Below, one piece after another: positions 6,892 to 22,806 of a DNA stretch of 64,000 bases (position 1 is its first letter; the number at the start of each line of letters is the position of its first letter). This DNA is from Verrucomicrobiia bacterium. GTDB lineage: Bacteria; Verrucomicrobiota; Verrucomicrobiia; Verrucomicrobiales; Akkermansiaceae. Location: NCBI GenBank assembly GCA_030430455.1, contig JAUIJB010000009.1, positions 1 to 64,000 on the forward strand, read 5' to 3'. The position numbers and the translations under genes are program-made. The notes below the pieces were generated by a model. That model searched no databases. It was not told the origin of the DNA and saw only the letters and a program-made list of their open reading frames with translations.

Positions 6892-9800
6892 ATGATGAAA
6901 CACAGCTTGATTGGAGCCCTGATTGCATTCGCCTCGCTGATGGCGTCCCATGCGATGGTGAGTGAGGAGCTTTGGACGCAGGTCCAGGAGGCGCGGGAGA
7001 AGGACCAGCCGAAGACCGAGATCGGGCTGCTCGAGCAGATCGAGCAGGCGGCCTTCGAGCAGGAGGCCTGGGCCGAGGGCGTGCGGGCGATGGCCCAGCG
7101 GATCGCCACCGAAAACCAGATCGAGGGCCGCGCCGTGGTGATCAAGCAGCTCGACGAGGCGATCGGGGAGGCCCCGCCGCAGGCCCGGCCGCTGCTGCGT
7201 GCCATGTCGGCCTCCTGGCTGCTCGGCTACTACCACCAGAACCGCTGGCGCTTCATGCAGCGCAGCTCGACCGGCAGTCCGGTGGGTGACGACTTCGAGA
7301 GCTGGGACCTCGCGCGGATCCTCGCCGAGATCGACCAGCGCTTCCAGGCGGCGCTCGAGGACGACGAGGCGCTGAAGGCCGCGCCGGTCGGCGACTTCGA
7401 CCTGCTGCTGGAGAAGGGGCAACTGCCCGACGAGCATCGCCCGACCCTGTTCGACTTCATCGCCAACGAGGCGCTCGGGTTTTACGCGATGGAGGAAGTC
7501 GCGGTGTCGCGTCCGGTCGATGCCTTCGACATCGCGGCGGACTCGCCGGTCTTCGCCGGCGTGGAGGATTTCCTCGCCTGGCAGCCGCAAACCGACGACG
7601 AGACCTCGCCGAAGTTCCGCGCCCTGCGGCTGCACCAACGCTTGCTCGAGTTCCACCGCGAGGACGACGACCGCCTCGCCTTCCTGACCGCCGACCTCCA
7701 GCGGCTGCGCTGGGCGATCCGGGCGGCCGGCGAGGAGGGCAAGGACGAGCGCGCCGAGAGGGTGCTCCGGACCTTCATCGAGCGCCATGCCGACAGCCCG
7801 CTGAGCGCCTGGGCCCGGGTCGACCTCGGCCAGCGCCTGCAGGGCGACGAGCGCGAGAAGGACGCCCACGGGGTGTGGCTCGCCGGCGCCGAGGCCTTCC
7901 CCGATCACCCCTTCGGCAAGCTTTGCCGCAACCGGGTGGATCGGCTCGAGATGCCCATGCTCAACCTCAGCGTCGAGAACCACTGGACGCCGGCGGGCGA
8001 GGACATTCGGGTCAGTCACCGCAACCTCGACCGCGTCTGGTTCCGGCTCTACTCGATGGCCTTCAAGCCGAGCCGGGAGACCATCAACCGGGACCCGCTG
8101 CCGGACCAGGAGGCGTGGCTGCCCGCGATGCTCGACGAGGATCCGGTCCGTGCCTGGAGCGAGGAGCTGGTCGACGAGAGGCTCTTCAAGATGCGCGACG
8201 CCACCCTGCCGGTCCCGGAGGACCTGCCGGATGGCTATCACGTCCTCGTCGCCAGCGCCGACGAGGAGTTTTCGCTGCAGGACAACGCGGTCGCGCTGTG
8301 CGGCGTCCACCTCACCCCGCTGGCGCTGAGCGTCGGTCAGAAGCCGGAGGGCGGGCTCGAGGGCTTCGTGGTCGATGCGGTCAGCGGGGCGCCGCTGGAT
8401 GGCGTCGAGGTGGCGGTCTGGACCTGGGTCAACAACGACGAGCAACTGGTCGAACGTTCGGTCCGGACCGACGTCGGCGGCCGCTTCGAGTTGGACGAGG
8501 GCCCGCAGGGGCGATGCCTGTTGGTCGCCCGGCGGGGCGTCCAGCGAGCCGTGGTGAGGACCTGGCTGGGGAACCGCTCCGGGCGCAGGAGCCAGGACCA
8601 CGAACAGGTGATCTTCTTCACCGATCGCTCGATCTACCGGCCCGGCCAGACGGTTCACTTCAAGGGGATCCGCTTCGTGACCAACCCGGCCGAGGGCAAG
8701 TACGAGGTGCTCCCCGGAAAGGACGGTGAGGTGGTCCTGCGCGACCCCAATGGCGAGGTGGTCGAGCGGCTCCAGGTGTCGACCAACGAGCGCGGATCCT
8801 TCGCGGGGAGCTTCACCGCCCCCGACGGCAGCGTGCTGGGAAGGTGCCAGATCATGATCGAGGGAACCCACCGCATCGGTGGGCAGGTCCAGGTCGAGGA
8901 ATACAAGCGACCGAAGTTCTTCACCGAGGTCGATGCGCCGGCGGAGGAGGTCTCGCTCGGCGAGGAAGTCGCGGTGAAGGTGCGCGCCGAGGCCTACACC
9001 GGGGCGGCGGTCGACGGCGCCAAGGTCGCCTGGCGGGTCACCCGCGGGGCCCAGCTGCCGCCGTGGACGCGCTGGTGCTGGTGGATCCCGCCATTCTCAT
9101 CCGACAGCGAGGAAATCGCCCACGGCGTGGCCGAGACCGCCGCCGACGGATCGGTCGAGCTCCGCTTCACCGCCGAGCCGGACACTGGGGTCGACCCCGA
9201 GCTCGAGCCGGTCTTCGTCTTCGAGATCACCGCGGACGTGACCGACGGAGCCGGCGAGACCCGCTCGAAGACCCGCACCATCCGGGTCGCCCGGACCAGC
9301 CTCGCCGCGCGGCTGGAATGCGACGACTGGCTGCCTTCCGGCGACAAGGTGGCGATCCGGGTCCACACCGAGTCGCACGACGGCGAGGGACGCGAGGCCG
9401 GGGGAACCCTGCGGATTCACCGCCTCAAGGAGCCGGAGGAATGCCCGCGGCCGGAGTCGAACCAGGGGAACTGGCGCTACCAACACAGCGAGGATCCCTC
9501 CGACCGCTGGGAACCCGGGGAGCAGGTCGAGGAGTTCGCGGTCACCACCGACGAGGAGGGCCTGGCGGAGGTCGAAGCCGAGCTCGATGCCGGTGCCTAC
9601 CGCCTGGTCTTCACCACCCGCGATGCCGGCGGCAACGAGGTCAAGGCGCTGCTCGGGATCCAGGTCGTCGACCCGGAGGCCAGGGACTTCCCGACCATGA
9701 AGCCCTTCCACGTCGTCCTGCCCGGCGACTCGATCGAGTCCGGCGGCACCGCCGTGCTGCTGTGGGGCAGCGGACACGAGGAGGCGCGGGCCCGGGTCGA

Positions 9801-12800
9801 GTGGTTCCGCGACGGCGAACTGCTGCGGCGTGAGTGGTCGGACCCGGACCGCACCCAGCAGCGCTTCGAGCTGGATGTCGACGACGCGAGCCGCGGCGGC
9901 ATCACCGCCTTGGTGCACCAGGTGACCCTCAACCGGGCGCAGCGCTTCCAGCAGCGCGTCGAGGTGCCGTGGACCGACAAGCAGCTCAAGCTGCGCTGGG
10001 AGCGGCTGGTCTCGAAGCTCCAGCCGGGCGCGAAGGAAACCTGGACGGCGGTGATCGAGGATGCCGACGGGGTCGGCGTGGCGGCCGAGATGGTGGCGAC
10101 GCTCTACGACGCCTCTCTCGATGCCTTCCTCGGCCATGGTTTCCGCGACCTGGCGGGGTTTCTCAGGCGTGAGTCGGGCTACTACCGCAACGACCAATTC
10201 AGCAGCTCGCCGACAAGTCTGTCCCAGCCCACGGGTTTCCAGAGCCCGGGGCACTTTGCGATTCCGCAGCCCTTCCGTCACTATCGTAGCGAGCTCGCGC
10301 TCGGCTTCGGCCGGAGGTTCCGGGGGGCTGACGCGGTCTATTTCGGGCGAAGGAATGCGAGGGACGCCACGGCCATGAATGACGGGATGATGGGCGGCGC
10401 GGTGGACGCCTTCGCCGGGACCCCGGCAACGATGGAGGCCGCTCCAGCCGCCCCGATGGCCGCGGCGGCCGGGGCACCGGCGCGGATGAAGGCCGACGCC
10501 GGGGCCGGCGCCACGCCGGAGCCCCAGCCCGACCTCGACCAGGTCAGCCTGCGCGAGAACCTCAACGAGACCGCCTTCTTCCATCCCGACCTGACCAGCG
10601 AGGCCGACGGCAAGGTGCGGATCAGCTTCACCATGCCCGAGGCGCTGACGAAGTGGCGCTTCCTCGGCATGGCCCACGACGCCGACTTCCGCTCGGGCCT
10701 GCTCGAGGGCGAAACGGTGACCGCCAAGGACCTGATGGTGCAGCCGAACCCGCCGCGCTTCCTGCGCGAGGGCGACGCGATCGAGTTCACCGTCAAGGTG
10801 ACCAACCAGGCCGACGAGTCGAAGAGCGGCGTCGCCCGCCTGACGCTCAACGACGCGGCCACCGCGGAGGATCGCACGGCGGCGCTCGGCATCGGGTCCC
10901 CCGAGCAGCCCTTCGAGGTGCCGGCCAAGGAAAGCCGGACCCTGAGCTGGCGGATCGAGGTGCCGGATGGCGCCGGCTTCCTGCAGTACAAGGCGGTCGC
11001 CTCGAGCGGCGACCTCAGCGACGGCGAAGTCGGCTGGCTGCCGGTGATCCCGCGGCGGATCCTCGTCACCGAGTCGATGTCGCTGCCGATCCGCGACGCC
11101 GGGAGCAGGGAGTTCGAGTTCACCAAACTGCTCGAGAGCGGCGGGTCGGAGACGCTGGAGAACCAGTTCGTCCACGTCCAGGTCGTCTCCCAGCCGGCCT
11201 GGTATGCGGTGATGGCGCTGCCCTACCTGATGGAGTTCCCGCACGAGTGCGCCGAGCAGACCTTCAACCGCTACTACGCCAATGCGCTGGCGCGCCACAT
11301 CGCGACCTCCGATCCCAAGATCCGGCGGATCTTCGAGCTGTGGCGCGAGGATGGTGAGGCGCTCGACAGCCCGCTGATGAAGAACCAGGACCTCAAGGGG
11401 ATCCTGCTCGAGGAGACCCCCTGGCTCGCCGAGGCGAAGAGCGAGGCCGCGTCGCGGCGCCGGGTCGGCCTGCTGTTCGACGACAACACGATGGAGCGGG
11501 AGCTGGAGAAGGCGCTCGCCAGGCTCGCCGAGATGCAGCACGGCAACGGCTTGTGGCCGTGGTTTCCGGGCGGCCGCGAGAGCGAGTACATCAGCCTCTA
11601 CATCACCACCGGCTTCGGTCGCCTGCGTGCCCTCGGGGTGGAGACCGACATCACCCCGGCACTGCGCGCACTGGGCCCGCTCGACGCCGAGCTCACCCGG
11701 CGCTACGAGCGGATCCGCGAGGATGGCGACCTCGATGAGGACCACCTGACCCCGTGGGTGGCGCACCACCTCTACACCCGCACCTTCTTCCTCAGGGACC
11801 GCAAGGTGAAGGCGGCCGACCAGGTCGCCTTCGACTACTTCGTCGGCCAGGCGAAGGAATACTGGACCTCGCTTGGCAGCCGGATGTCGCGCGCGCACGC
11901 CGCGCTGGCGCTGCATCGCCTCGGCGAGCGGGGGACCGCCGGCCTGATCACCCGCTCGCTCAAGGAGCACGCCAAGGTGACCGAGGAGCAGGGGATGTTC
12001 TGGAAGGACTCCGAGGGCGAGGGCTGGTGGTGGTGGCAGGCGCCGATCGAGACCCAGGCGATGATGATCGAGGCCTTCCGCGAGATCGATGGCGACGAGG
12101 CGGCGGTCGACGACTGCCAGGTGTGGATGATCAAGCAGAAGCAGGTCGGCGACTGGCGCACCACCAAGGCGACCGCCGACGCGGTCTATGCGCTGCTGAT
12201 GGGCGGGCGGAACCTGCTTTCCTCCGACGAGCTGCTCGAGGTCTCGCTGGGTGGCGTGGAGGTCGAGCCCGGCAAAATCGAGGCGGGGACCGGGATGTAC
12301 GAGGTGCGCTTCGCACGTGACGAAGTGAAGCCGGAACTCGGCGACATCGAGCTGCGCAAGAGCGACGAGGGCGTCGCCTGGGCCAGCATCCACTGGCAGT
12401 ACCTCGAGGACATGGCGAGGGTGACGTCGCACGAGGGTAGCCAGCTGCGGCTCGACAAGGAACTCTTTCTGCGCCGCAACACCGACGAGGGGCCGGTGCT
12501 GGTGCCGATCGACGAGCACGAGGTTGCGGTCGGCGACGAGCTGGTCACGCGGGTCGTCGTGCGCAACGACCGCGCGATGGAGTTCGTCCACCTGAAGGAC
12601 CTCCGCGGCAGCGGCACCGAGCCGGTGAACGTGCTGAGCGGCTATCGCTGGCAGGACGGGGTCGGCTACTACGAGGTGACGCGCGACACGGCGACCCACT
12701 TCTTCATCGATCGCCTGCCGCCGGGGACCCACGTGTTCGAGTCCAGCGTGCGGGTGCAGCATGCCGGCGAGTACCAGACCGGTATCGCCGAGGTCCGCTG

Positions 12801-12858
12801 CATGTATGCCCCCGAGTTCGCCGCCCACAGCGGGAGCGTCGGGATCGAGGTGGAGTAG
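6892..12858 (+). CDS. Secreted giant alpha-2-macroglobulin family protein (thioester type)
   Basis: 1988 residues from ATG 6892, where a signal peptide begins (MMKHSLIGALIAF...SHA); an in-frame upstream start lacks this. Family role: a periplasmic protease trap, in which a cut bait region activates a thioester that binds the protease. Visible parts: N-terminal helical/TPR-like region (about 25-370), macroglobulin beta domains with YRPGQTVHFKG near 585, a Gly/Ala/Met-rich low-complexity bait-like stretch (about 1160-1215), the alpha-2-macroglobulin domain near 1235-1290, and the thioester motif CAEQ with Cys1453 in PHECAEQTFNRYY, then the toroid domain. It has no lipobox cysteine, unlike many bacterial homologues, and no pbpC neighbour. 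The long architecture resembles the YfaS-like family. Confidence 0.92.
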   Translation: MMKHSLIGALIAFASLMASHAMVSEELWTQVQEAREKDQPKTEIGLLEQIEQAAFEQEAWAEGVRAMAQRIATENQIEGRAVVIKQLDEAIGEAPPQARPLLRAMSASWLLGYYHQNRWRFMQRSSTGSPVGDDFESWDLARILAEIDQRFQAALEDDEALKAAPVGDFDLLLEKGQLPDEHRPTLFDFIANEALGFYAMEEVAVSRPVDAFDIAADSPVFAGVEDFLAWQPQTDDETSPKFRALRLHQRLLEFHREDDDRLAFLTADLQRLRWAIRAAGEEGKDERAERVLRTFIERHADSPLSAWARVDLGQRLQGDEREKDAHGVWLAGAEAFPDHPFGKLCRNRVDRLEMPMLNLSVENHWTPAGEDIRVSHRNLDRVWFRLYSMAFKPSRETINRDPLPDQEAWLPAMLDEDPVRAWSEELVDERLFKMRDATLPVPEDLPDGYHVLVASADEEFSLQDNAVALCGVHLTPLALSVGQKPEGGLEGFVVDAVSGAPLDGVEVAVWTWVNNDEQLVERSVRTDVGGRFELDEGPQGRCLLVARRGVQRAVVRTWLGNRSGRRSQDHEQVIFFTDRSIYRPGQTVHFKGIRFVTNPAEGKYEVLPGKDGEVVLRDPNGEVVERLQVSTNERGSFAGSFTAPDGSVLGRCQIMIEGTHRIGGQVQVEEYKRPKFFTEVDAPAEEVSLGEEVAVKVRAEAYTGAAVDGAKVAWRVTRGAQLPPWTRWCWWIPPFSSDSEEIAHGVAETAADGSVELRFTAEPDTGVDPELEPVFVFEITADVTDGAGETRSKTRTIRVARTSLAARLECDDWLPSGDKVAIRVHTESHDGEGREAGGTLRIHRLKEPEECPRPESNQGNWRYQHSEDPSDRWEPGEQVEEFAVTTDEEGLAEVEAELDAGAYRLVFTTRDAGGNEVKALLGIQVVDPEARDFPTMKPFHVVLPGDSIESGGTAVLLWGSGHEEARARVEWFRDGELLRREWSDPDRTQQRFELDVDDASRGGITALVHQVTLNRAQRFQQRVEVPWTDKQLKLRWERLVSKLQPGAKETWTAVIEDADGVGVAAEMVATLYDASLDAFLGHGFRDLAGFLRRESGYYRNDQFSSSPTSLSQPTGFQSPGHFAIPQPFRHYRSELALGFGRRFRGADAVYFGRRNARDATAMNDGMMGGAVDAFAGTPATMEAAPAAPMAAAAGAPARMKADAGAGATPEPQPDLDQVSLRENLNETAFFHPDLTSEADGKVRISFTMPEALTKWRFLGMAHDADFRSGLLEGETVTAKDLMVQPNPPRFLREGDAIEFTVKVTNQADESKSGVARLTLNDAATAEDRTAALGIGSPEQPFEVPAKESRTLSWRIEVPDGAGFLQYKAVASSGDLSDGEVGWLPVIPRRILVTESMSLPIRDAGSREFEFTKLLESGGSETLENQFVHVQVVSQPAWYAVMALPYLMEFPHECAEQTFNRYYANALARHIATSDPKIRRIFELWREDGEALDSPLMKNQDLKGILLEETPWLAEAKSEAASRRRVGLLFDDNTMERELEKALARLAEMQHGNGLWPWFPGGRESEYISLYITTGFGRLRALGVETDITPALRALGPLDAELTRRYERIREDGDLDEDHLTPWVAHHLYTRTFFLRDRKVKAADQVAFDYFVGQAKEYWTSLGSRMSRAHAALALHRLGERGTAGLITRSLKEHAKVTEEQGMFWKDSEGEGWWWWQAPIETQAMMIEAFREIDGDEAAVDDCQVWMIKQKQVGDWRTTKATADAVYALLMGGRNLLSSDELLEVSLGGVEVEPGKIEAGTGMYEVRFARDEVKPELGDIELRKSDEGVAWASIHWQYLEDMARVTSHEGSQLRLDKELFLRRNTDEGPVLVPIDEHEVAVGDELVTRVVVRNDRAMEFVHLKDLRGSGTEPVNVLSGYRWQDGVGYYEVTRDTATHFFIDRLPPGTHVFESSVRVQHAGEYQTGIAEVRCMYAPEFAAHSGSVGIEVE

Positions 12859-13273: not shown

Positions 13274-13516
13274 CTACCAGAGTCGTTTCCTGGCAAATGC
13301 CCGACCGGAACCGGACTTCAGGTAGCGTTCGAAGTTGGCGGCCTGCTCGCGGCTGCTGAAAGCGAGGTAAGTGACCAGCTTCCAGGGTCGAAGTCCCTCC
13401 GTGTTGATCGAGCCACCGGCGTTGTGCCGGTTGAGGCGTTCCTTGAGGTCGCTTGTCGAACCGATGTAGGTCCGGTCTGGGTCGACCTCGCTGCGGAGAA
13501 GGTAGACGTAGTGCAT
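13274..13516 (-). CDS. GIY-YIG nuclease domain protein
   Basis: 80 residues from ATG 13516 (the longer in-frame reading upstream is not family-like). The GIY-YIG fold signature is visible as YVYLLRS near the start and TYIGSTSDLKERLNRHNAGG at about 18-37, with the Arg on the first helix and Glu in FSSREQAANFERYLKSG. Length and pattern match small single-domain GIY-YIG proteins of the UPF0213/YhbQ type, predicted nucleases of uncertain cellular role. It lies just outside the left end of the integrative element and may be an earlier insertion or a chromosomal gene. Confidence 0.88.
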   Translation of the reverse strand: MHYVYLLRSEVDPDRTYIGSTSDLKERLNRHNAGGSINTEGLRPWKLVTYLAFSSREQAANFERYLKSGSGRAFARKRLW

Positions 13517-13701
13517 CGCCCCAACCCTGAAGCTCTTGGTTCGGACCGTGAAGCCCTCCTTCGCCCGGCTGCCGTCGAGGCTACGGCGGGCAGCCTTCGC
13601 CAAGACTTCGGCTCCCCCCCGGAAAAGGCACAGCCCTCGTATGGACCTCATTCACCCGCGAAACCGGGGGAGGCTGGCTTGCCAGCCGAAGCCTTGGCGA
13701 A

Positions 13702-13751
13702 GGCTGGTAGACCCGACAGGAGTCGAACCTGTATCTACGGCTTCGGAGGCC
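13702..13751. other. attL: 50-bp copy of the tRNA-Arg 3' half
   Basis: Identical to 22582-22631, which contains the 3' half of the tRNA-Arg gene up to its anticodon loop. This copy has no 5' half, so it is the displaced att site marking the left edge of the integrative element. Confidence 0.9.
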
Positions 13752-13789
13752 TTGGCCAAATGCTTGTTTTCTAGGGGTTTCGTGGACCC

Positions 13790-13812
13790 TGTAACCACCT
13801 GTAACCACCTTT
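13790..13812. promoter_or_regulatory. Left 10-bp direct repeat pair, candidate integrase/excisionase arm sites
   Basis: GTAACCACCT twice in tandem (13791-13800, 13801-13810). A matching pair, GTAACCACTT twice, is at 22460-22479 next to the right end. Position and symmetry suggest arm-type binding sites; this is inference. Confidence 0.5.
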
Positions 13813-13851
13813 CCGCTTGCCGCACTACGTCGCAGGGAGTAGAACCGCGGC

Positions 13852-15159
13852 ATGAGGAAGACAATCACCGTCACCGAGGTTTCCCACCCTCGCTACACTC
13901 ACCGCTGCCGCTACCCCGGCCCCAACGGCAAGCTCCGTACTTCGTGGTTCAAGAACGAGACCGACGCCCTGGCCTTCGCGAAGAAGAAGGGCGAGGAACT
14001 CGGGCAGGAGGGCAAGGCCTTCGGCACCATCGACCGCGACGAGCGGGCCGTCCTCGAGTTCTGGCGCGCCTTCGTGGATCGCAACGAGGACACCCCGCCG
14101 CCGCCCCTGATGGACGTTCTCCGCGAGTATGCCGATCGCTGGGCGGCCACCCGGTCGAGCGTGACGGTCGAGAAGGCGGTCGAGACCTACATCGCGACGA
14201 AGGAGGCCGAAGGGCTGCGCGACCGCTCCCTGCAGACCATCGAGAGCCGATGCGGACGCTTCGCCAAGGACTTCGCCGGCCGGCCCCTCGCGTCGATCAC
14301 CCCGGTGGAAATTTCCGATTGGATCCTCCGGCTGCGCGCGTCCCGGATCCGGGGGAGGGGGAAGGTCACCAGGTCCGGCGAGATGCCGCCCCTCGGCCTT
14401 GAGGCGAAGCGCAACCACCGGATCGCGATCCATGGTCTCTACACTTTCGCCAAGGCTCGGGGATGGGTGAAGGAGAACCCGGTCGCGGATGCCGCCCGCC
14501 CTCGGCCGAAGCGGAAGCAGCCGGGAATCCTCCGGCCGGTCGATGTTGCGCGGTTCCTCGCCGCGGTCGATGCGGTCGATCCCGGTCTGGTCCCGTTCTG
14601 GGCGGTCCGGTTCTTCGCCGGCGTTCGCGAGCAAGAGGCGCTTCGGATGGACTGGTCAATGGTGGACCTCGAGGCCGGCGAGATCAACCTGCCGGGCACG
14701 ATCACGAAAACGAGCCAGCCGCGGACCCTGAAGGTCGAGGCCGCGCTCGAGGCCTTCCTCGAGCCCCACAGCAAGGCCTCCGGGGACCTCTGCCCGTTCA
14801 CACCGATGGAGCGCCGCTACCGGCTCCTCAAGGCGAGGAAGATGCTCAAGGAGGAGGACGCGAAGGCGAAGAAGGGGACCACCGCGTTCCCCTCTCCGAT
14901 GCCCGCCAACTGCGCGCGGCACTCGTTCGCCACCTACCATCTTCTCAAGTTCCGCCACGCTGGGGAGACTGCCCTTCAACTCGGGCACGGAGGATCGCCG
15001 GAAATGCTCCACCGCCACTACAAGGGGATTGCCCGTGACGCCGATGCGGAGGGCTTTTGGGAGATCCGGCCGGCCAAGAGACCCGACAACGTGGTCCGCA
15101 TCAAGCGTGGGAAGAAGGCCCCAGCGAAGAAGACCACGACCAGGAGGAAGGCACGATGA
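13852..15159 (+). CDS. int: Tyrosine recombinase / phage-type integrase
   Basis: 435 residues. An N-terminal arm-binding-like segment (1-60), a core-binding SAM-like domain (about 100-205) and a C-terminal catalytic domain are seen. Catalytic positions: Arg259 in GVREQEALR, Lys286, Arg356 in NCARHSFAT, His379 in LGHG and the nucleophile Tyr390 in HRHYKG. The first His of the usual H-x-x-R box is Asn353 here, a tolerated but uncommon change. A Lys/Arg-rich tail ends the protein. It sits beside attL and should catalyse integration into tRNA-Arg. Its stop overlaps the next start (ATGA). Confidence 0.94.
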   Translation: MRKTITVTEVSHPRYTHRCRYPGPNGKLRTSWFKNETDALAFAKKKGEELGQEGKAFGTIDRDERAVLEFWRAFVDRNEDTPPPPLMDVLREYADRWAATRSSVTVEKAVETYIATKEAEGLRDRSLQTIESRCGRFAKDFAGRPLASITPVEISDWILRLRASRIRGRGKVTRSGEMPPLGLEAKRNHRIAIHGLYTFAKARGWVKENPVADAARPRPKRKQPGILRPVDVARFLAAVDAVDPGLVPFWAVRFFAGVREQEALRMDWSMVDLEAGEINLPGTITKTSQPRTLKVEAALEAFLEPHSKASGDLCPFTPMERRYRLLKARKMLKEEDAKAKKGTTAFPSPMPANCARHSFATYHLLKFRHAGETALQLGHGGSPEMLHRHYKGIARDADAEGFWEIRPAKRPDNVVRIKRGKKAPAKKTTTRRKAR

Positions 15160-15689
15160 CCGAGGACGAGTGGAGGGAGATTTCAATCCGGATGCACTAC
15201 TCCAAGCGCATCACCGTGGCTATGGAGCTCTACGACGCACCTGGTGCGCGGGAAAAGCTCGAGAAGCCGGACCCCGACCTCTTCTTTGCCTTGCTCGCCC
15301 GTGTCGTCCCGGACACGGGATTCACCGCGAGGGTGGAGCAGGCGCTCGCAAGCGGTGACTTTGGTCTGTTCGACTCCATCAGCGAGGCGATCCGGCTTAG
15401 GCATGCCGTTGCCAAGCGCCGGCGCAGCGGAATCGCCAATGACGGAAGCCGGCCATCATTCCCGCTGCACGCAGCGGTAGGCTTCAGCGTCCTTGAAGAG
15501 TTGGTGGTGGCAGGCGAGCCGATTCCACGGAAGGGCGACCTCTCCGAGCTGATCCAACAGAAGCTGATCGAGCTCGGCGCGGCGCCGTACGAAGACGCCA
15601 GCGATTGGCGCAAGCTCTGGAAGGTGCTGGAGGTCGAAAAGGCCCCGCAGAAGCACGTCGGCCGGACCCCGAAGCCGCGGAAGCGCTGA
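15156..15689 (+). CDS. Hypothetical protein coupled to the integrase gene
   Basis: 177 residues from ATG 15156, overlapping the integrase stop by ATGA; a longer upstream in-frame reading lies inside the integrase gene and is rejected. The protein is mixed helical and soluble, with a basic RRRSG segment near 90 and a basic C-terminus (GRTPKPRKR). I do not recognise a family. Translational coupling to the integrase gene suggests it works with the element's integration or early functions. Confidence 0.7.
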   Translation: MTEDEWREISIRMHYSKRITVAMELYDAPGAREKLEKPDPDLFFALLARVVPDTGFTARVEQALASGDFGLFDSISEAIRLRHAVAKRRRSGIANDGSRPSFPLHAAVGFSVLEELVVAGEPIPRKGDLSELIQQKLIELGAAPYEDASDWRKLWKVLEVEKAPQKHVGRTPKPRKR

Positions 15690-15769
15690 TCCAGCAGGGT
15701 TTGGAGGTGGGGTGAAGTTTCGGCCGCACCGCGACGCAGCGAGCACGCACTTGGGGCAGACTCTGCCCC

Positions 15770-15964
15770 GTGATTGCAGACAAACCACTCCTGACGCGAA
15801 GCGAGGCCGCAAAAGCCCTCGCCGTTTCCGTGCGGAAGGTCGACTACCTGATCGCCGCCGGTGAGTTGCCGGTTGTGCGGATGGGCCGGACCATCCGGAT
15901 CCGCCCAAGCGCGATCGAGTACTTCGTCGAGGCCCGCGAGCAGTACGGAAAGGCAGCACGATGA
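15770..15964 (+). CDS. Excisionase-like helix-turn-helix protein
   Basis: 64 residues from GTG 15770. The pattern LLTRSEAAKALAVSVRKVDYL, then GELPVVRMGRTIRIRPSAIE, is the MerR/Xis-type winged helix domain found in excisionases and element regulators. It is small enough to be a recombination directionality factor. It overlaps the following gene by ATGA. Confidence 0.82.
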   Translation: MIADKPLLTRSEAAKALAVSVRKVDYLIAAGELPVVRMGRTIRIRPSAIEYFVEAREQYGKAAR

Positions 15965-16281
15965 AGATCGGGTACAGCGAAGACGAGGTAATCGTCATGG
16001 CAGCGCGGTCTCTCGTCGATCCCGACCCTCGCGGCCGAGTTTGGGCCTGCTGCGTCATGCTCTCCAGCTGCGGCGAGGTCGTCGATGGATTCGACCTTGT
16101 AGGCATGCAGAGGAGCGTCTGGGACTTTGAACCGGATGACATGCAAGCGCCGGCCCGCACGCTCGAGAATGCGGTGAGGCGATCCGGTTGTCTCAAGAAA
16201 CTTCACGACCGATTCCGGGACATCACAGGGCACGAGCTCGACGATTGTCTCGAAGAGGTGAGCTTCCCAAAGGAGTCATGA
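15961..16281 (+). CDS. Hypothetical protein of the coupled cluster
   Basis: 106 residues, no recognised family. Acidic overall, with several cysteines (WACCVML, SCGEVV, SGCLKK, LDDCLEE) and no signal or membrane segment. The start overlaps the preceding stop and its own stop overlaps the next start (both ATGA), so it belongs to one polycistronic, translationally coupled unit. Confidence 0.65.
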   Translation: MKIGYSEDEVIVMAARSLVDPDPRGRVWACCVMLSSCGEVVDGFDLVGMQRSVWDFEPDDMQAPARTLENAVRRSGCLKKLHDRFRDITGHELDDCLEEVSFPKES

Positions 16282-16481
16282 GTCGGAAGAGACCCCGCAC
16301 CCGGCCCGTGCCGACCCGCTCCGAGCGCGAGACGGCGCGCATCTTTTCGATCCTCGACGACCTCGAGGCCCATCGGCCCAAGCGCAGAATCACCGTCGCC
16401 GATCACGAGCGATTCCGCGCGACCGGAGAGCCGCCCCACCAGGGCGACGCAGACCTCGAGGAAGGGAGGGCAGCAAGATGA
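16278..16481 (+). CDS. Small basic hypothetical protein
   Basis: 67 residues from ATG 16278, with an AGGAG ribosome site five bases before it. Rich in Arg and Pro at the N-terminus (MSRKRPRTRPVPTRSE), then a helical region with ILDDLEAHRPKRRITVAD. No family recognised; the charge suggests nucleic-acid binding. ATGA overlaps on both sides. Confidence 0.55.
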   Translation: MSRKRPRTRPVPTRSERETARIFSILDDLEAHRPKRRITVADHERFRATGEPPHQGDADLEEGRAAR

Positions 16482-16753
16482 GCGAGTCAGCCACCAAACC
16501 AGCGCGCATCCAGCGGAAGCGGACCAAGGGGTGGAAGAAGCCAGCGAACACCGTTTGCGTCACCAGACCAGGCCGCTGGGGGAACCCCTACGACTGGAAA
16601 ACGCTGGGGAAGGCCGAGGCCGTTCGACTCTTCGAGAAGAACATCCTGCCGACCCTGCCGGTCCACGAGCTGCGCGGGAAGAACCTCGCGTGCTGGTGCA
16701 AGGCTGGCGAGCCGTGCCACGCGGAATCCCTGCTTCGAGCTGCGAACCGATGA
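16478..16753 (+). CDS. DUF4326-family protein
   Basis: 91 residues. CVTRPGRWGNPYDW near 27-40 and GKNLACWCKAGEPCHAESLL near 67-86 match the DUF4326 domain common in phages and mobile elements; the paired Cys and His residues suggest a metal site. Function unknown. A strong GGAAGGAGGG ribosome site precedes it; ATGA overlaps link it to both neighbours. Confidence 0.75.
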   Translation: MSESATKPARIQRKRTKGWKKPANTVCVTRPGRWGNPYDWKTLGKAEAVRLFEKNILPTLPVHELRGKNLACWCKAGEPCHAESLLRAANR

Positions 16754-16872
16754 ACGCACCACCCGAACACGCCGCCGCCCCGATGCGCGAACACCGAGGC
16801 GGAGCTGAAGGAACAATCGACGACCGAGAACCTACTGTGAATGGGGCAGGAACGCAAGGAGGTAGGCCATGA
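16750..16872 (+). CDS. Very small coupled ORF (40 residues)
   Basis: Starts in an ATGA overlap with the DUF4326 gene and ends in an ATGA overlap with the next gene. The peptide is Gly/Ala/Pro/Glu-rich (MNAPPEHAAAPMREHRGG...), with no fold I can name. The evidence for translation is the coupling on both sides only; it may serve mainly to carry ribosomes onward. Confidence 0.4.
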   Translation: MNAPPEHAAAPMREHRGGAEGTIDDREPTVNGAGTQGGRP

Positions 16873-17663
16873 TGAGGTTCATCGCGCTTCACGATTCCGA
16901 GCTCACCAACCAGCTGCAGGAACGCCACCCGAACGCGTTCCTGCTCCTGCTGCTGATCGCGCGCCGGGCACGCTGGAAGAAGGAGCCCTGCCCGATCCTG
17001 GGGCTGTCCTACGGGCAAGCTCTGATCGGCGACTGGAGGAAGGCCGGACTCCCTTCGGAGAAGGCATACAGATGCGCGAAAGATGCGCTTGTTAGGGGCG
17101 GACTGGCGACGTTCAGAGGGGCGAAGACAGGGGCGAACAGGGGAACAGTTGCAACCCTAGTATCTACCGAGGTTTGCTCCATCTCAGATCCGACAAGGGG
17201 CGATCAAAGGGGCGATCAAAGGGCGGACGAGGGGGCAGACGAAGGGCGGACGAAGGGCGGACGAAGGGCGACAAAGCACACAGAGCACACAGAGCACACG
17301 GATCACCAGCCACTGCTTACCCCCCCAATCCCCCCCAAGGGGGCTGACGCACCGCCGCCGGCGATGCCGCATGGCTGGCGAAACTGGTCAGCTAAGCGCC
17401 AGAAGGCCACCAGGGTGGGCCGCAACACTGAGCTGATGAAGCGCATGGGGAGATGGTTTGGAAGGAGGCCAGAAACCTTGTGGACCGTCCACGAGGCCGG
17501 GCTCCTCGAGAACCTGAATCCACCGGAGGACGAGCTCGACATGCTCGAGGCCCGTTACCTTGCCGTGGTCGACAAGGAGCACGACTACCGCCGACGAGAC
17601 CTTGCCACTCTCCTGGCCAACTGGACGCAGGAGATCGACCGAACATTGACCGAGACCCACTGA
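16869..17663 (+). CDS. Hypothetical protein, possibly a replication/primosome-type DNA-binding protein
   Basis: 264 residues from ATGATG at 16869. The N-terminal ~75 residues are helical (FLLLLLIARRARWKKEPC... IGDWRKAGLPSEKAYRCAKDALVRGGLATF), resembling the winged-helix part of phage replication-organiser proteins. A low-complexity middle (about 110-150) repeats GDQR, ADEG, GRTKG and TEHTEHTD. A helical C-terminal domain follows. The fold assignment is a guess from pattern and place. It ends one base into the next start. Confidence 0.5.
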   Translation: MMRFIALHDSELTNQLQERHPNAFLLLLLIARRARWKKEPCPILGLSYGQALIGDWRKAGLPSEKAYRCAKDALVRGGLATFRGAKTGANRGTVATLVSTEVCSISDPTRGDQRGDQRADEGADEGRTKGGRRATKHTEHTEHTDHQPLLTPPIPPKGADAPPPAMPHGWRNWSAKRQKATRVGRNTELMKRMGRWFGRRPETLWTVHEAGLLENLNPPEDELDMLEARYLAVVDKEHDYRRRDLATLLANWTQEIDRTLTETH

Positions 17664-17914
17664 TGAGAACCTACAAAGCAACCGCCCGAATCGAGAAGAC
17701 CTACAGCATCAGCGCCGAGAACGCCAAGGAGGCCGAGCGCAAGCTGGCCGAGATGACCAGGAGGGACGCGCAAGCCATCGGCGCCGAGTTCATCGACCAG
17801 GACGAGATCGTCGACCAGGCCGAAGACTGCGCGGCATGCCGTGGCACGGGGGCATCGCCCGACGACCCGGACACCGATTGCAGCCGATGCCATGGAAGCG
17901 GGGAAGAACCGTGA
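17663..17914 (+). CDS. Small protein with DnaJ-like CxxCxG zinc knuckle
   Basis: 83 residues from ATG 17663 (overlaps the previous stop by one base). The C-terminal half carries CAACRGTG and CSRCHGSG, two CxxCxG motifs as in the DnaJ zinc centre, likely binding one zinc ion. The N-terminal half (YKATARIEKTYSISAENAKEAERKLAEM) looks like a small alpha/beta domain. Role unknown; GTGA overlap with the next gene. Confidence 0.6.
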   Translation: MRTYKATARIEKTYSISAENAKEAERKLAEMTRRDAQAIGAEFIDQDEIVDQAEDCAACRGTGASPDDPDTDCSRCHGSGEEP

Positions 17915-18135
17915 GCCGTCCGCGCCACTCCGCCGGCGCGCGACGGACCGCCGGCGTCGACCGGGCAGCCTACGAGCGAGGACTGGCAAGGACCGTGGGC
18001 AGGGCATGCGACAAGTGGCTCAGGAAGCGCGAGGCCGCCGGCTTGCTGGTGGAACAGCCGGGCGACTTCCCGACGCGGCAGCGGGGCGCAGAGGGGCAGG
18101 GAGGGGGCGCCCACTCGCGGGGGGGCAAAGTCTGA
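17911..18135 (+). CDS. Small basic hypothetical protein, last of the coupled chain
   Basis: 74 residues from GTG 17911. Highly basic, helical middle (YERGLARTVGRACDKWLRKREAAGLLVE) and Gly-rich tail. No family recognised. The preceding overlap supports its start. About 75 bp of non-coding DNA with a T-run (18165-18174) follow. Confidence 0.5.
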   Translation: MSRPRHSAGARRTAGVDRAAYERGLARTVGRACDKWLRKREAAGLLVEQPGDFPTRQRGAEGQGGGAHSRGGKV

Positions 18136-18212
18136 GACCGAATTGCGCACCACCGACCGATGAGCCTTTTTTTTACGGGCGATGAAAAATCCTGAACCCC
18201 GACACCGGAAGC

Positions 18213-18467
18213 ATGAAACCTAGTGCGCCCAAATTCTTCACCCCGCAGGACCTGGCGGAGCAATGGGGCGTGCACCGCAAGACCGTGCTCCGCGCGATCC
18301 GGCGTGGCGACCTGCCGGCGGTGAGGATCGGGCCGCAGACGATTCGGGTGACTGAGGTGGATGCGGCGATCTTCTACGCCAAGCGAGCGAGCGGTGTCCC
18401 CGCCCGTTCCCGGTTGTCCTCGGTTGCCCCCGGTCGGCAGGTTGAGCACGACCCGCCCGCCGCGTAG
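18213..18467 (+). CDS. Helix-turn-helix DNA-binding protein (excisionase/MerR type)
   Basis: 84 residues. FFTPQDLAEQWGVHRKTVLRAI and GDLPAVRIGPQTIRVTEVDAAIF form the winged-helix DNA-binding pattern also seen at 15770-15964. It starts a new unit ahead of the structural-type genes, so it could regulate them or act as a second directionality factor. Confidence 0.78.
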   Translation: MKPSAPKFFTPQDLAEQWGVHRKTVLRAIRRGDLPAVRIGPQTIRVTEVDAAIFYAKRASGVPARSRLSSVAPGRQVEHDPPAA

Positions 18468-18477
18468 CATCGAGGCC

Positions 18478-19023
18478 ATGGAAACCCGCAAGATGCCTTT
18501 GTCCGAGCCCGCCGTCCGCGGTCGCAAAATCTACGGCTACGCGGCCAAGTTCGGGGTCCTCTCCAACAACCTGGGCGGCCGCGAGCCGTGGTTTGAGGAA
18601 ATCGCGCCGGGAGCGTTCCCGCCCCTCGAGGAGCAGGACGTGAGGGCGTTCTTCAATCACGACAAGAACCACGTCCTGGCCCGGTCGAAGCGCGGCAAGG
18701 GGTCGCTGAAGCTCAGCATCGACTCGACGGGGCTGCGCTACGAGTTTGAGCCGCCGGACACCACCGCGGGTCGCGATGTGTTGGCGCTGGTGAAGCGCGG
18801 CGACCTGGACGGCGCCTCTTTCGCCTTCACCGTCGAGAAGGACACGTGGACCAAGCGCGACGGCAAGCGGATCCGCCGGATCCTGAAGATTGCCAAGCTC
18901 CATGACATCTCCGTCGTGACCGAGGGCGCCTATTCCGACGCCACCGCAGCCGCCCGCAGCAAGCCGGCCGGAGGCATGGACCCGGAAGTTGCCGACTGGC
19001 GCGCCCGGCTCGGCATGAAGTGA
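18478..19023 (+). CDS. HK97-type phage prohead protease
   Basis: 181 residues from ATG 18478 (the frame is open upstream, but family proteins start here). Pattern of the U35 prohead protease: GYAAKFGVLSN near 20-30, EEIAPGAF near 41-47, the catalytic His in FFNHDKNHVLARS (His61), and Ser114 in LDGASFAFTV, with the third-residue region HDISVVTEGAY near the end. In phages it matures the capsid scaffold. Here no major capsid or portal gene is adjacent, which is unusual. Confidence 0.85.
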   Translation: METRKMPLSEPAVRGRKIYGYAAKFGVLSNNLGGREPWFEEIAPGAFPPLEEQDVRAFFNHDKNHVLARSKRGKGSLKLSIDSTGLRYEFEPPDTTAGRDVLALVKRGDLDGASFAFTVEKDTWTKRDGKRIRRILKIAKLHDISVVTEGAYSDATAAARSKPAGGMDPEVADWRARLGMK

Positions 19024-19042
19024 AACCTACGCACGAACTACT

Positions 19043-20041
19043 ATGAACATCCTGAAGAAAATGCGCGGCGAGAAGCCGCCCCAGATGGTCGAGGTCGAGA
19101 TCACCCGCGCCATCATGGTGAAGTTGCCGGACGGCACATTGACCTCCGCCGAGCCGGGCCAAGTCCTCACGCTTGAGAAACACGAGGCCGACTCCCTTGT
19201 CGGCTCCCGGGGCGCCGAGCGGATCCTGTCCGAAGCCGACAAGGCCGAGCTCGAGCGGATCGGGAAACTCATCCCGCCGCCGCATGACCCGCGCCCGGTT
19301 CCGGAAGCGTGGGGCGACCTGCCGGAGTGTTTCGGGAAGTGGTGGGGACTCGCCGAGCGACTGCGCGCGATGAAGGGCAGGTTGACCGAGATGGAGGTCG
19401 TCTTGCTGCGAGGCCATCGCCTCAGCGAGGAGGAACAACACTGGCTCCGCCATGACGCAGGCGTGGAACGCTCGACGTACCGGCAGCGTCAGGAGCTCAT
19501 TGACGGGTGGATGCAGAAGCATTCGGGCAGGATGCAGGTTCTGAGCGAGCAGAAGGCCGCCGACATGGGCCGAGTTCGCGATGCGGCACGCCGCCAAGGC
19601 GAGGCGATCCAGGAGTTTCTCGACGAGCACCTCGAGGCGATGCTGGCGCTGAAGTTCGAATGCTCCAAACACGTGCTCGCGGCGAACGCGCGGTTGCAGC
19701 GACTGAGCAGCGAGTTGGCCGACACCGGTTTCGAGGTCTTCAAGGCGCGGGTCGCGGCCCTCGGCGTCGGGGATGCCCTCATTCGGGAATGGTTTGGGAA
19801 GAGCGCCGACTTCCTCAAGTTCAACCAGCCAGTCGCGACCCCGGATGGCGTGAGGTACGGTTGGACCGAGGAGAGCGGCGAGCGCGTGAACTACGTCGAC
19901 CGCCCCGTCGAAGGCATGGCGGCGATCTTGCCGCGCTACCAGGCCGAGGAAGCGCGCCTTGGCAAGTTGCTGAAGCAGGCCAAGGCAGAGCTCAAGCAGG
20001 CCAAGGCCGCCGGCGGCGAAGAACTCCAACTCCCCTCCTGA
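19043..20041 (+). CDS. Hypothetical protein between prohead protease and tape-measure-like gene
   Basis: 332 residues. Mostly alpha-helical and charged; residues 95-215 are likely coiled coil, and the C-terminus is Lys/Ala-rich (LLKQAKAELKQAKAAGG). No family recognised. Position between two virion-type genes suggests a structural or scaffolding role, inferred only. One base separates it from the next start. Confidence 0.65.
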   Translation: MNILKKMRGEKPPQMVEVEITRAIMVKLPDGTLTSAEPGQVLTLEKHEADSLVGSRGAERILSEADKAELERIGKLIPPPHDPRPVPEAWGDLPECFGKWWGLAERLRAMKGRLTEMEVVLLRGHRLSEEEQHWLRHDAGVERSTYRQRQELIDGWMQKHSGRMQVLSEQKAADMGRVRDAARRQGEAIQEFLDEHLEAMLALKFECSKHVLAANARLQRLSSELADTGFEVFKARVAALGVGDALIREWFGKSADFLKFNQPVATPDGVRYGWTEESGERVNYVDRPVEGMAAILPRYQAEEARLGKLLKQAKAELKQAKAAGGEELQLPS

Positions 20042-20042
20042 C

Positions 20043-21407
20043 ATGGCGCGATCACGATCCATCGGAGGCATCTACGCCGAGCTGGCCCTGAAGGACGGCA
20101 AGTTCAAGAAGGGGCTGAAGTCTGCGGAGCGTTCGCTGAACAACTTCGCCAAGGCGATTCCCGGCATCGCCGCCCAGGCCGCGAAGGTGGCGGCTGTGAC
20201 GGGTGGCGCGTTCGCCACGGCGCTGGCGGCCGGCGCGAAGCATACCGCAGCGATGGGTGCGGAACTCGACCATCTGAGCGACCAGACCGGCGTTTCGGTG
20301 GCGTCGCTGATGAAGTTGCAGCAGGCGTACAAGGACGCCGGGAAGGGCGCGGAGACGGCCGGCAAGGACATCAACAAGATGCAGCAGGCGATCTACGACG
20401 CCGCCCAAAACCCGGGTGGCTCGGAGGATCCGTTCGCGCAGATGGGACTGAGTGCTGAGCGACTGATGGCGATGAGCCCGGAGCGCCAGTTCTACACGAT
20501 CGCCCAGGCCATCGACGGGATCGGGAACCGCACCAAGCAGACCGCGCTGGCCATGGACGTTTTCGGGCGCTCCGGTGGCGAGTTGCTCACCGTGTTCAAG
20601 GGTGCGGACCTTGAGGACGTGGAAGGGAGCCTGGGCCGCATGCCGGCGCTGATGGAGGACTTCAGCGGGGCACTCGAGCGCGTCGACACGCTCATGGGTC
20701 GCCTGCCGAACAAGACCGACCAGTTCTTCACCGGATTCACGACCGGGATCGTGGGAGAACTGCTGCCGGGACTGGAGACGGTCGACGACTTCGACTTCAC
20801 CCAGCTCGGCGAGAACCTCGGCGACAACCTCGCGCACGCGATTTCCATCGTCACCGATGGCACCGCCTGGGAGCTGTTCACGCTGCACGCCGAGAAGGCG
20901 ATCGCGCAACTTCAGACCGAGGGGCTGGGGCTGTTCAACGCATGGGCGGCCGGCATCAATGCGACCTGGGAGGGCATCACCGGACAGGGCGGGCCGGATT
21001 ACGACTGGGGTGCATCCTTCGACAAGTTCGCCGACGCCGGGAACATCGAGAACCGGAAGATCATCGAGGACCTCGAGGCGAGGATCGCCGACATCATGGC
21101 GAGGACCGAGGCCGCCGCCCTCGAGCGCAAGTCCGCGGCTGCGGCGATCGGGAAGGAGGACGCGGCGCCTGTGATCCAACTCGAGCCCAGCGCCATGCAG
21201 AAGGTCGTCGAGAAGCTCGAGGAGGCCGTCGCGCCGGAGCGATCCTGGGAGATGACCCGCTACGAAGTGAACGAGATGCAGCGCCGGGGGCTGGGCTTCG
21301 GGGCCTTCACTCGAAACGAGGAGGGCAAACAGGTGACGCTGCTTGAGCGCATCCACGACACGCTGAAGGAGGCCGCCGACAACGGAGGGAACCTGTCATG
21401 GGCATGA
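20043..21407 (+). CDS. Phage tail tape-measure-like protein (short)
   Basis: 454 residues. The N-terminus ELALKDGKFKKGLKSAERSLNNF, a hydrophobic AAKVAAVTGGAFATALAAG segment, then LDHLSDQTGVSVASLMKLQQAY and ALAMDVFGRSG match the start of phage tail tape-measure proteins. Full proteins are usually far longer, so this is a short form. Known role: sets tail length and helps DNA entry. No tail tube or baseplate genes are adjacent. Confidence 0.75.
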   Translation: MARSRSIGGIYAELALKDGKFKKGLKSAERSLNNFAKAIPGIAAQAAKVAAVTGGAFATALAAGAKHTAAMGAELDHLSDQTGVSVASLMKLQQAYKDAGKGAETAGKDINKMQQAIYDAAQNPGGSEDPFAQMGLSAERLMAMSPERQFYTIAQAIDGIGNRTKQTALAMDVFGRSGGELLTVFKGADLEDVEGSLGRMPALMEDFSGALERVDTLMGRLPNKTDQFFTGFTTGIVGELLPGLETVDDFDFTQLGENLGDNLAHAISIVTDGTAWELFTLHAEKAIAQLQTEGLGLFNAWAAGINATWEGITGQGGPDYDWGASFDKFADAGNIENRKIIEDLEARIADIMARTEAAALERKSAAAAIGKEDAAPVIQLEPSAMQKVVEKLEEAVAPERSWEMTRYEVNEMQRRGLGFGAFTRNEEGKQVTLLERIHDTLKEAADNGGNLSWA

Positions 21408-21754
21408 TGCTGACCCGCTCATGGAAGACGCTGCCGGAGCCCTTCCGCTTGTGGAAGCAGGCCCCGCGCGACGAGCGCCGGCAACACGCCATCGAGTGCG
21501 GCGTGCTCGCCTTCGAAGCCTACGCCAGATTCGACGCCGCAATGGTGGCCCTCGCCGCCGAGCTGCGGAAGCCGAGCGGGAAGCAGCCCAGGCGCGCCAA
21601 GGCGATCGACAGCGTGCGCGTGACGCTCGAGGGAGAGGGTGAGCCGGGCCGGCCCTACGTCGATGCTGCGGTGCCGCTCCTGGCGAAGCTGTGGCGGCAT
21701 TTCGACGAGTCCGCCAAGAGAGCGCGGGAGGCGCTCGAGAACGATCTTCAGTAG
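21398..21754 (+). CDS. Hypothetical protein downstream of the tape-measure-like gene
   Basis: 118 residues, starting ten bases before the previous stop. Soluble, helical and basic-rich; motifs include WKTLPEPFRLWKQAPRDERRQ and FDESAKRAREALEN. No recognised family. The overlap suggests joint translation with the tape-measure-like gene. Confidence 0.6.
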   Translation: MGMMLTRSWKTLPEPFRLWKQAPRDERRQHAIECGVLAFEAYARFDAAMVALAAELRKPSGKQPRRAKAIDSVRVTLEGEGEPGRPYVDAAVPLLAKLWRHFDESAKRAREALENDLQ

Positions 21755-21953
21755 CGGGTGTGCGCCCGGCTCCCCGGGTGGGGGGTCGGGCATCTCCGCT
21801 CGAGCCGGCGCCGATGGTCAAATTGCAGGCGACCGTCGGCGCCAGCCCTACAGCCACGGGCGATCGGGCGGCCCAGACCTACTGATTCAACTTTTGTCAT
21901 CGGGCCGGGAGCTGTTGCGCGCCGGCCGCGGGCGGGGGTATGAGATCCGATGC

Positions 21954-22142
21954 ATGAGCACGACAACCGAAGAACACGACCAGGGCGCGAAGGAAATCCG
22001 CATGACCGGCGACCGGATCACCGTCAGCGGCCGGATCCTGGAGAAGCTCGAGGAGGCAGCCGAGGCCGAGGGCAGGGAGCTCGACGACGCCTTCTTCTCC
22101 GAGGCGCTGAGCATCGGCTTGGACGGCCTGAGCGCGCGGTGA
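21954..22142 (+). CDS. Small acidic protein, possibly ribbon-helix-helix type
   Basis: 62 residues from ATG 21954. Sequence TGDRITVSGRILEKLEEAAEAEGRELDDAFFSEALSIGL has a strand-helix-helix order like small RHH regulators or antitoxins. It is acidic and not obviously DNA-binding. No partner toxin gene is seen next to it. Confidence 0.45.
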   Translation: MSTTTEEHDQGAKEIRMTGDRITVSGRILEKLEEAAEAEGRELDDAFFSEALSIGLDGLSAR

Positions 22143-22432
22143 GCCCGCGGCGATTGCGGCCTGACGCACGCTGGAGAACTCGCCGATGCGGGCAGCGATC
22201 TCGGGATGGTCATCCCTGATCTTTGCGAGAAGATAGGCGGCGTTCGTGCTCCCCCGCTGGCACTTCGTGTTATGAACACGAGGTTCCAGGTCGGTCCTTG
22301 CCCCTTGCCCGGGCAAGTCAGGAGCCTTGTCCATCCCCTCGATCATGAGCAGCGCATCGACGTTGAAGCCGTCTTTCTCGAGCTCGTCCTTGACCGCCTT
22401 TGCCTTGTCGCGGTCGAGGGCGAAGTGGCGGG
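22143..22432 (-). pseudogene. Truncated gene remnant at the right end of the element
   Basis: On the minus strand a frame without a start reads YARHFALDRDKAKAVKDELE, then GSTNAAYLLAKIRDDHPEIAARIGEF and SSVRQAAIAAG, the latter typical of plasmid/phage proteins with a repeated 'xxYLLARLxRDxP... SVRAAAxAAG' pattern. After about 22143 the frame runs into unrelated sequence. Both ends are missing, so it is a remnant, perhaps cut when the element's right end formed. Confidence 0.5.
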
Positions 22433-22458
22433 CGTAAACGCAACTTAGTTGCGATAAG

Positions 22459-22480
22459 TGTAACCACTTGTAACCACTTT
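22459..22480. promoter_or_regulatory. Right 10-bp direct repeat pair, candidate arm sites
   Basis: GTAACCACTT twice in tandem, matching the left pair at 13791-13810 with one base changed per unit. Confidence 0.5.
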
Positions 22481-22581
22481 CGGGTGCGAAAACGTGCCTT
22501 TTCGTGCTTTCCCGTGCAAGAAGGCCACCGGCCCCGAATCGGCTCTAAGTCCCGTAGAATCAGGGATTTGCCCTTGTTTTC

Positions 22582-22631
22582 GGCTGGTAGACCCGACAGG
22601 AGTCGAACCTGTATCTACGGCTTCGGAGGCC
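22582..22631. other. attR: 50-bp direct repeat overlapping tRNA-Arg
   Basis: Identical to 13702-13751. It restores the 3' half of the tRNA gene, so the tRNA stays functional after integration. Confidence 0.9.
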
Positions 22632-22659
22632 GCTATTCTATCCATTGAACTACGGGTCC
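22585..22659 (-). tRNA. tRNA-Arg (anticodon CCG)
   Basis: Complete cloverleaf on the minus strand: acceptor stem GGACCCG pairs with CGGGTCT (one G-U), anticodon loop CTCCGAA with CCG, T-arm loop GTTCGACTC, and encoded CCA at the 3' end. The 3' half is supplied by the element's att repeat. Confidence 0.95.
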
Positions 22660-22738: not shown

Positions 22739-22806
22739 CGGACCGCGCGACCCCAGTCGCGCACGGAGCCGTGGGAGCCCGGGCGCGACTGGGGTCGCGC
22801 GGTCCG
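22739..22806. terminator. 24-bp perfect inverted repeat (hairpin), downstream of the lipoprotein gene
   Basis: Arms 22739-22762 and 22783-22806 are exact complements with a 20-base loop. It lies just past the 3' end of the DUF4136-type gene and may stop transcription, though no T-run follows. The arm sequence (…CGCGACTGGGGTCGCG…) recurs at 35175, 35273, 43542, 54290 and 61553, so it is also a dispersed repeat. Confidence 0.55.

Follow-up and report, generated by a model that had tools for sequence, protein, structure and literature searches.

An integrated element with features of a phage satellite, carrying a prohead protease and a tape-measure gene, in a tRNA-Arg gene of a Verrucomicrobiia bacterium

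The window analyzed in this work is a stretch of 64,000 nucleotides, corresponding to positions 1 to 64,000 of contig JAUIJB010000009.1 (assembly GCA_030430455.1), from a Verrucomicrobiia bacterium of the family Akkermansiaceae. An element of 8,880 bp is found within it, and very probably represents a helper-dependent phage satellite integrated in a tRNA-Arg gene. The evidence available at the sequence level consists of its boundaries, its intact genes, a layout conserved in a sister element and a common cos-like site. An earlier note, made from the letters of the window, had hesitated between a satellite and a decayed prophage; the first option is favoured by the sister, which shows the same gene order, by a gene for a 332-aa (amino acid) protein which, within the searches made, occurs only in such elements, and by the cos-like site, which a full prophage has too. 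The finding of the same layout in a different genus is decisive for reading the element as a satellite, and not as a decayed prophage.

The element encodes, on the forward strand as all the genes reported below for it, an S78 prohead (head maturation) protease of 181 aa at 18478-19023 (PF04586, 6e-39) and a tail tape-measure protein of 454 aa at 20043-21407 (phrog_9483, 3e-23, the best of the PHROG tape-measure families). Capsid, portal, terminase and lysis genes were not recognized among its proteins in Pfam and PHROGs scans, and the presence of a protease and a tape measure lacking capsid, portal and terminase partners, as described in the earlier note, is thus borne out. The main genes show the codon-position composition typical of coding DNA.

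The sister element, G405:C63, belongs to another genus of the same family. It spans 9,001 bp between 49-bp repeats at a tRNA-Arg(TCT) gene, and is located, with host flanks, within a 42-kb contig of a genome which is 84% complete. It starts with an integrase, a gene coupled to it by an ATGA overlap, a helix-turn-helix (HTH_17) gene and a small gene similar to the one at 16278-16481 of the window (E 3e-4). The middle part encodes a RepO-like protein (phrog_678, 9e-7), a DnaC-like loader (2.6e-12) and a small terminase subunit (PF05119, 4.8e-14), and the late genes encode an S78 protease (2.9e-40), a homologue of the 332-aa protein, 30% identical to that of the window, and a 268-aa tail protein, followed by the tRNA gene. 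No major capsid, portal or large terminase is recognizable, and all the frames are open. A relative with the same gene order, suggested as a check by the earlier note, does exist, and is capsid-less and only 9,001 bp long.

The proteases of the two elements are reciprocal best matches, 51% identical (159 bits, the next best match scoring 133), and group together in a small tree, with support of 90/87. H61 and S114 are invariant in 11 out of 11 aligned proteases. Because catalysis by S78 proteases uses a histidine and a serine, the protein of the window is probably an active enzyme. Open frames and conserved residues, maintained at such a divergence, point to selection for function rather than to decay.

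These results bear on the possibility that the element is what is left of a siphophage, from which deletion removed the genes for terminase, portal and capsid, those for lysis and most of those for the tail, integrase, protease and tape measure surviving by chance. Such a decayed prophage appears very unlikely. The same reduced layout is found, with open frames, in a sister as diverged as described above, and the histidine and serine of the protease are retained. The late genes are tightly coupled, with a 1-bp gap and a 10-bp overlap; together with the open core frames, this agrees with the view, expressed in the earlier note, that intact coupled genes argue against decay. Moreover, the relatives of the integrase are small elements lacking recognizable capsid genes. 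Full prophages as relatives, and several disabled genes in this copy, had been indicated as the outcome that would speak for decay; instead, the core frames are open and the closest relative of the whole element is the capsid-less 9-kb sister, although the closest relative of its tape measure alone resides in a full prophage. Some features do fit a prophage in decay. The tape measure of the window and the tail gene of the sister both match the same complete prophage of 36.1 kb, the surviving late genes follow the phage order (cos-like site, protease, tape measure), the small terminase is gone, and toward the right boundary some 800 bp (21755-22581) look poor in coding sequence.

The boundaries of the element are marked by two 50-bp repeats, at 13702-13751 and 22582-22631, which match at 50 positions out of 50 and enclose the unit of 8,880 bp, which would leave the chromosome as a circle. 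An integrase-bearing unit of 8.9 kb was therefore correctly delimited in the earlier note, the integrase being assigned to phrog_1 with an E-value of 1e-27. The right repeat is part of an intact host tRNA-Arg(CCG) gene, the integration target, found by ARAGORN at 22585-22659 on the minus strand and by the Rfam tRNA model at 22588-22659 (68.8 bits). ARAGORN reports a tRNA at both repeats, and Rfam only at the right one. At the left repeat the tRNA match is restricted to the 3' part, while the 5' half is unrelated, non-tRNA sequence; this copy is therefore a displaced 3' fragment of the gene. The two repeats described in the earlier note are confirmed at their positions, the right one alone corresponding to a complete tRNA gene. 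No additional copy of the left-end DNA of the element was found in the source genome.

The gene for the 332-aa protein (19043-20041), a satellite-specific, helical, candidate assembly or scaffold factor, follows that of the protease. Of 260 genomes of the family searched with a profile, four have it, always near a tRNA gene, with homologues in the G405, G325 and G084 elements. No homologue was found outside the family in a sample of 387 genomes of the order, nor among 50,697 phage records, which speaks against a decayed phage, nor among 72,556 plasmids. Pattern scans of IMG/VR, performed with the 332-aa protein (as a single sequence and as alignments), the integrase and the tape measure, produced no relatives, and the protease matched a single phage contig of 3 kb. 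An AlphaFold2 model, obtained from four sequences (pLDDT 77), predicts a small beta domain at the N-terminus together with long helices, among them one of 72 residues. Comparison of the model with viral models and the PDB by Foldseek gave no significant relative, only weak matches of the N-terminal portion to small phage structural proteins. Profile comparison did not support a capsid homologue (Ccm-like), nor a derivative of the small protein whose gene follows that of the capsid. The position directly after the protease and the predicted helical structure would be in keeping with a scaffold or size factor, a function carried out in SaPIs by Rcm and CpmB (PMC12409344). The gene may also be used as a marker to find further elements.

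The gene order of the G325 element is small terminase (PF05119, 5e-22), a homologue (2e-14) of the HTH_17 gene that precedes the protease in the window, a homologue of the 332-aa gene and tRNA-Arg(TCT). On a second contig of the same genome, locus L098 (G325:C112:1-6000) begins with the terminal part (1-146) of another copy of the 332-aa gene, near a tRNA-Asn gene at 561-635. Since this copy adjoins a tRNA-Asn gene, integration in this lineage appears to occur at several kinds of tRNA genes; in G084 the 332-aa homologue adjoins tRNA-Ser. The lineage is known from two complete and about three partial elements, most of the genomes being draft assemblies.

A conserved block at 18108-18186, on the forward strand, represents a putative cos-like packaging site. 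It was recognized by its match to a site of the G325 satellite, which shares 65 bp (77%, E 2e-5) with a complete prophage of genome G072, both sites being located just upstream of a small-terminase gene. When the G325 site was scanned over the whole window, an outstanding match was obtained at 18101 (score 26, the next being 16), and its position along the order of genes corresponds to that in the relatives. Leave-one-out profiles were searched over 890 kb; each time, the best unseen match was the site left out, with E-values of 2.6e-5 for the prophage, 3.5e-6 for G325 and 0.016 for the window. With the three-site profile, the next match falls upstream of the small terminase of G405, with a non-significant E-value of 0.38. 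In the prophage the site is flanked on one side by an HNH-like gene and on the other by the small terminase, the position occupied by the cos sites of HK97-type phages. An RNA hairpin or a terminator was also considered; the site folds no better than shuffled sequences and no terminator was called. The common site tells which type of helper should be sought.

The prophage sharing this site is a siphoprophage, located at 710068-746168 of G072:C11, 36,100 bp between 30-bp repeats at a tRNA-Ser gene. It contains genes for small and large terminase, portal, protease, capsid, connector, tail tube and tail, assigned by eye from gene order and protein sequence, and an integrase different from that of the window. 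It also holds the closest relative of the tape measure, a protein of 477 aa, 43% identical, which aligns end to end with the 454 aa of the window; the counterpart in phage P8625 is 521 aa long. Given this alignment, the tape measure is of normal length, and the short protein postulated in the earlier note was rejected; a change of tail size by means of a shortened tape measure, also proposed there, is not supported, the length being normal for the family. The 268-aa protein of the sister is 44% identical (E 3e-61) to the product of the gene that immediately follows the tape measure in this prophage; the predicted model of this tail protein reached a pLDDT of 38 only. The two satellites therefore hold each one of two neighbouring tail genes of the G072 type. 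Their sizes, 8,880 and 9,001 bp, are nearly equal, and about one fourth of that of the prophage.

On these grounds, a mode of action may be proposed. The integrase and an AlpA-like HTH protein would excise the element, as in PICMI (PMC10803314), and the middle genes would replicate it. The cos-like site would then allow the terminase of an HK97-type siphophage, similar to the G072 prophage, to package the element, as reported for cos-type PICIs (PMC6092414, PMC5052747). The late operon, composed of the HTH gene, the protease, the 332-aa gene, the tape measure and a gene for a 118-aa protein, would act on the assembly line of the helper: the protease may enter the helper procapsid together with the 332-aa protein, which might serve as a substitute scaffold or capsid-size factor, and the tape measure may build a tail of near-normal length from borrowed tail subunits. 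A specific role in capsid assembly is put forward only tentatively. A broader interpretation, somewhat on the doubtful side, describes a new lineage of Akkermansiaceae satellites, in which the protease and the helical assembly protein of about 330 aa capture the head assembly of the helper, and a tail component is replaced as well; no capsid homologue or classical size factor would be used, and head and tail would both be partly made by the satellite.

Alternatively, the protease and the tape measure might act as dominant-negative poisons of the virions of the helper or of competitors, the element travelling in full-size particles by means of the cos-like site alone. This interference is a variant of the satellite explanation, its probability overlapping that of the latter, and is considered unlikely. 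It is consistent with the behaviour of PICMIs, which travel with a DNA motif only and no capsid remodelling (PMC10803314, PMC11389934), with the inhibition of tail assembly as a known satellite-borne defence (PMC11364771), and with the normal length of the tape measure, which does not suggest remodelling; at one fourth of the presumed helper genome, several copies of the element could also fill a normal head. However, the association of protease and 332-aa gene persists in two diverged elements, the retained histidine and serine suggest an active protease rather than a poison, and a limit on size is hinted at by the similar lengths of these elements.

Several points weigh against a satellite of this kind. 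Excised circle, induction and particle are all unobserved, and mobility and packaging are presumed from the sequence. No second S78 protease was found in the source genome, which is 91% complete, and hence no resident helper of this type is present there. What the protease and the 332-aa protein would do is judged from where their genes lie, and from a predicted model for which no structural match was significant. Different tail genes are found in the two complete elements, a tape measure in this copy and the gene after it in G405, and the small terminase of G405 and G325 has no counterpart in this copy. Finally, the cos-like site of the window gives the least significant match of the three in the leave-one-out profiles.

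The first part of the element is devoted to integration and regulation. The tyrosine integrase of 435 aa (13852-15159) has relatives 57-60% identical in other Akkermansiaceae elements. Its stop codon forms an ATGA overlap with the following gene (15156-15689), to which no function was assigned and which matches no family. The next gene (15770-15964, GTG start) encodes an HTH_17, AlpA-like protein, a likely excisionase-regulator (PF12728, 2.7e-10; phrog_66, 3e-7), with a homologue after the integrase in related elements too. Three coupled small genes follow, whose ATGA overlaps were read directly: one for a 106-aa protein of no known family (15961-16281), overlapping its upstream neighbour and with coding composition, one for a 67-aa protein (16278-16481, ATGA-coupled) weakly similar to gene g68 of G405, which occupies the same place, and one for a DUF4326 protein (16478-16753; PF14216, 3.6e-17).

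A 264-aa protein (16869-17663), for which no convincing family match was found, is probably a replication initiator, as judged from its position, since the sister has the RepO-like gene in the same part; replication genes are supported by homology only in the sister, not in the window copy. An 83-aa protein with a CxxCxGxG zinc motif (17663-17914) matches DnaJ_CXXCXGXG below the cut-off (8e-5). The second HTH_17 protein (18213-18467; PF12728, 1.1e-8) occupies the position of the small terminase. The gene for the 118-aa protein (21398-21754), which overlaps the tape-measure gene by the 10 bp mentioned above, shows coding composition and no family match. In the poorly coding right end, the only possible gene is for a small ribbon-helix-helix-like protein (21954-22142), with a weak match to PF07878, below the cut-off (E 0.05). 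Protein-like fragments (GSTNAAYLLAKIRDDHPEIAAR...), read by eye on the minus strand at 22150-22440, resemble a gene remnant; they have no match in Pfam or PHROGs. No defence gene was recognized among the small proteins of the element.

A mobilizable or conjugative integrative element, carrying the phage genes as cargo, was also taken into account. Integration in tRNA genes and an int-xis-rep module can be found in such elements too. However, no relaxase or conjugation gene was matched by any protein of the element in the Pfam and PHROGs scans, and the cos-like site and the terminase-linked relatives point to phage packaging; this explanation is considered extremely improbable.

Related integrases, about 40-60% identical, were found at about fifteen loci, in genomes and metagenome-assembled genomes labelled as Akkermansiaceae, Verrucomicrobiaceae, Luteolibacter or Akkermansia. 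Most of these loci contain the integrase, the following gene, an HTH_17 gene and replication or primase genes. Direct inspection confirmed the ATGA overlap in the window, in seven of these loci and in G405, and a tRNA-Arg gene is located at the far end of L053, L055, L061, L062 and L069. No homologue of the terminase, portal and capsid proteins tested, a limited set of queries, was found at these loci; the absence of recognizable capsid genes from them, together with the intact core genes of the window, disfavours the decayed prophage considered in the earlier note.

Two of these loci are worth describing. L055 (G072:C4:834800-854700) contains, at about 3.6-18.5 kb, a 15-kb element with the same type of integrase at a tRNA-Arg(CCT) gene, with genes for a Nu1-like small terminase (phrog_57, 4e-16), an AAA protein, a TIR-domain protein (phrog_13899, 9e-77), a DNA methyltransferase and proteins of no known family; it is probably another satellite, with defence cargo. 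In L053 (G008:C1:373500-393400), a 3.4-kb element at tRNA-Arg(CCT), at about 15.1-18.6 kb, is composed of integrase, HTH_17 and two small genes only, and is either a remnant or an extremely reduced member.

Outside the element, a GIY-YIG endonuclease gene (13274-13651, minus strand; PF01541, 9e-15) is located directly beside the left repeat, and a gene for a bacterial alpha-2-macroglobulin-like protein of 2027 aa (6775-12858; A2M, MG2 and bMG10 domains) adjoins the element. A near-perfect inverted repeat of 28 bp is found at 22739-22806, beside the tRNA-Arg gene and just beyond the element.

The element was compared with the closest known satellite families. General features of satellites, i.e. 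att repeats, integrase, HTH_17 regulator and an incomplete set of virion genes, are all found. The combination of a capsid-less protease and a tail-less tape measure is not seen in the satellite families compared, and no account of satellites with a prohead protease or a tape measure, or residing in Verrucomicrobia, was found in a search of an open-access library, most subscription papers falling outside it. Elements of this kind offer a defined test of the minimum of virion genes that a parasite needs, and of whether the control of procapsid maturation can be a route of capture.

The PICMIs of Vibrionaceae (PMC10803314) are similarly small and devoid of capsid genes, and feature integrase, overlapping gene (ATGA being there the commonest overlap), AlpA-type HTH and replication genes. 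They lack genes for capsid remodelling, and their DNA is packaged in the form of concatemers (PMC10803314). The first three genes of their typical order (int, overlapping gene, alpA, prim) are present in the element, where no primase is recognizable. The element differs in being integrated in tRNA-Arg, and not next to fis, in the phylum of its host, and in carrying the protease, the 332-aa protein and the tape measure, as well as a cos-like site that a siphoprophage shares.

Cos-type PICIs (PMC6092414; SaPIbov5, PMC5052747) resemble the element for integrase, AlpA-like regulator and replication module. They are packaged through the cos sequence of the helper, with or without a small terminase of their own, and encode their own assembly factor (PMC6092414, PMC5052747). 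In the element, on the other hand, no Ccm, CpmAB or Rcm homologue was recognized and no Stl-type repressor was identified, helper induction is unproven, and prohead protease and tape measure are present. Named PICI genes did not appear among the Pfam, PHROGs or PADLOC matches, a set in which PICI-specific profiles are not included. Rcm of SaPIpT1028 and other capsid-size factors (PMC12409344) are, like the 332-aa protein, mostly helical and encoded near packaging or assembly genes; the likeness is limited to this general character and position, with no sequence match. An HK97-type head maturation protease is also present in capsid-forming PICIs (cf-PICIs; PMC10690885), which, in contrast, encode major capsid, portal, connectors and both terminase subunits as well, none of them recognized here. 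Because the fis site and the capsid and terminase set of cf-PICIs are missing, and PICI-specific genes were not recognized, the element is best filed as a variant of phage satellite outside the named families, similar to PICIs and PICMIs in its presumed way of working.

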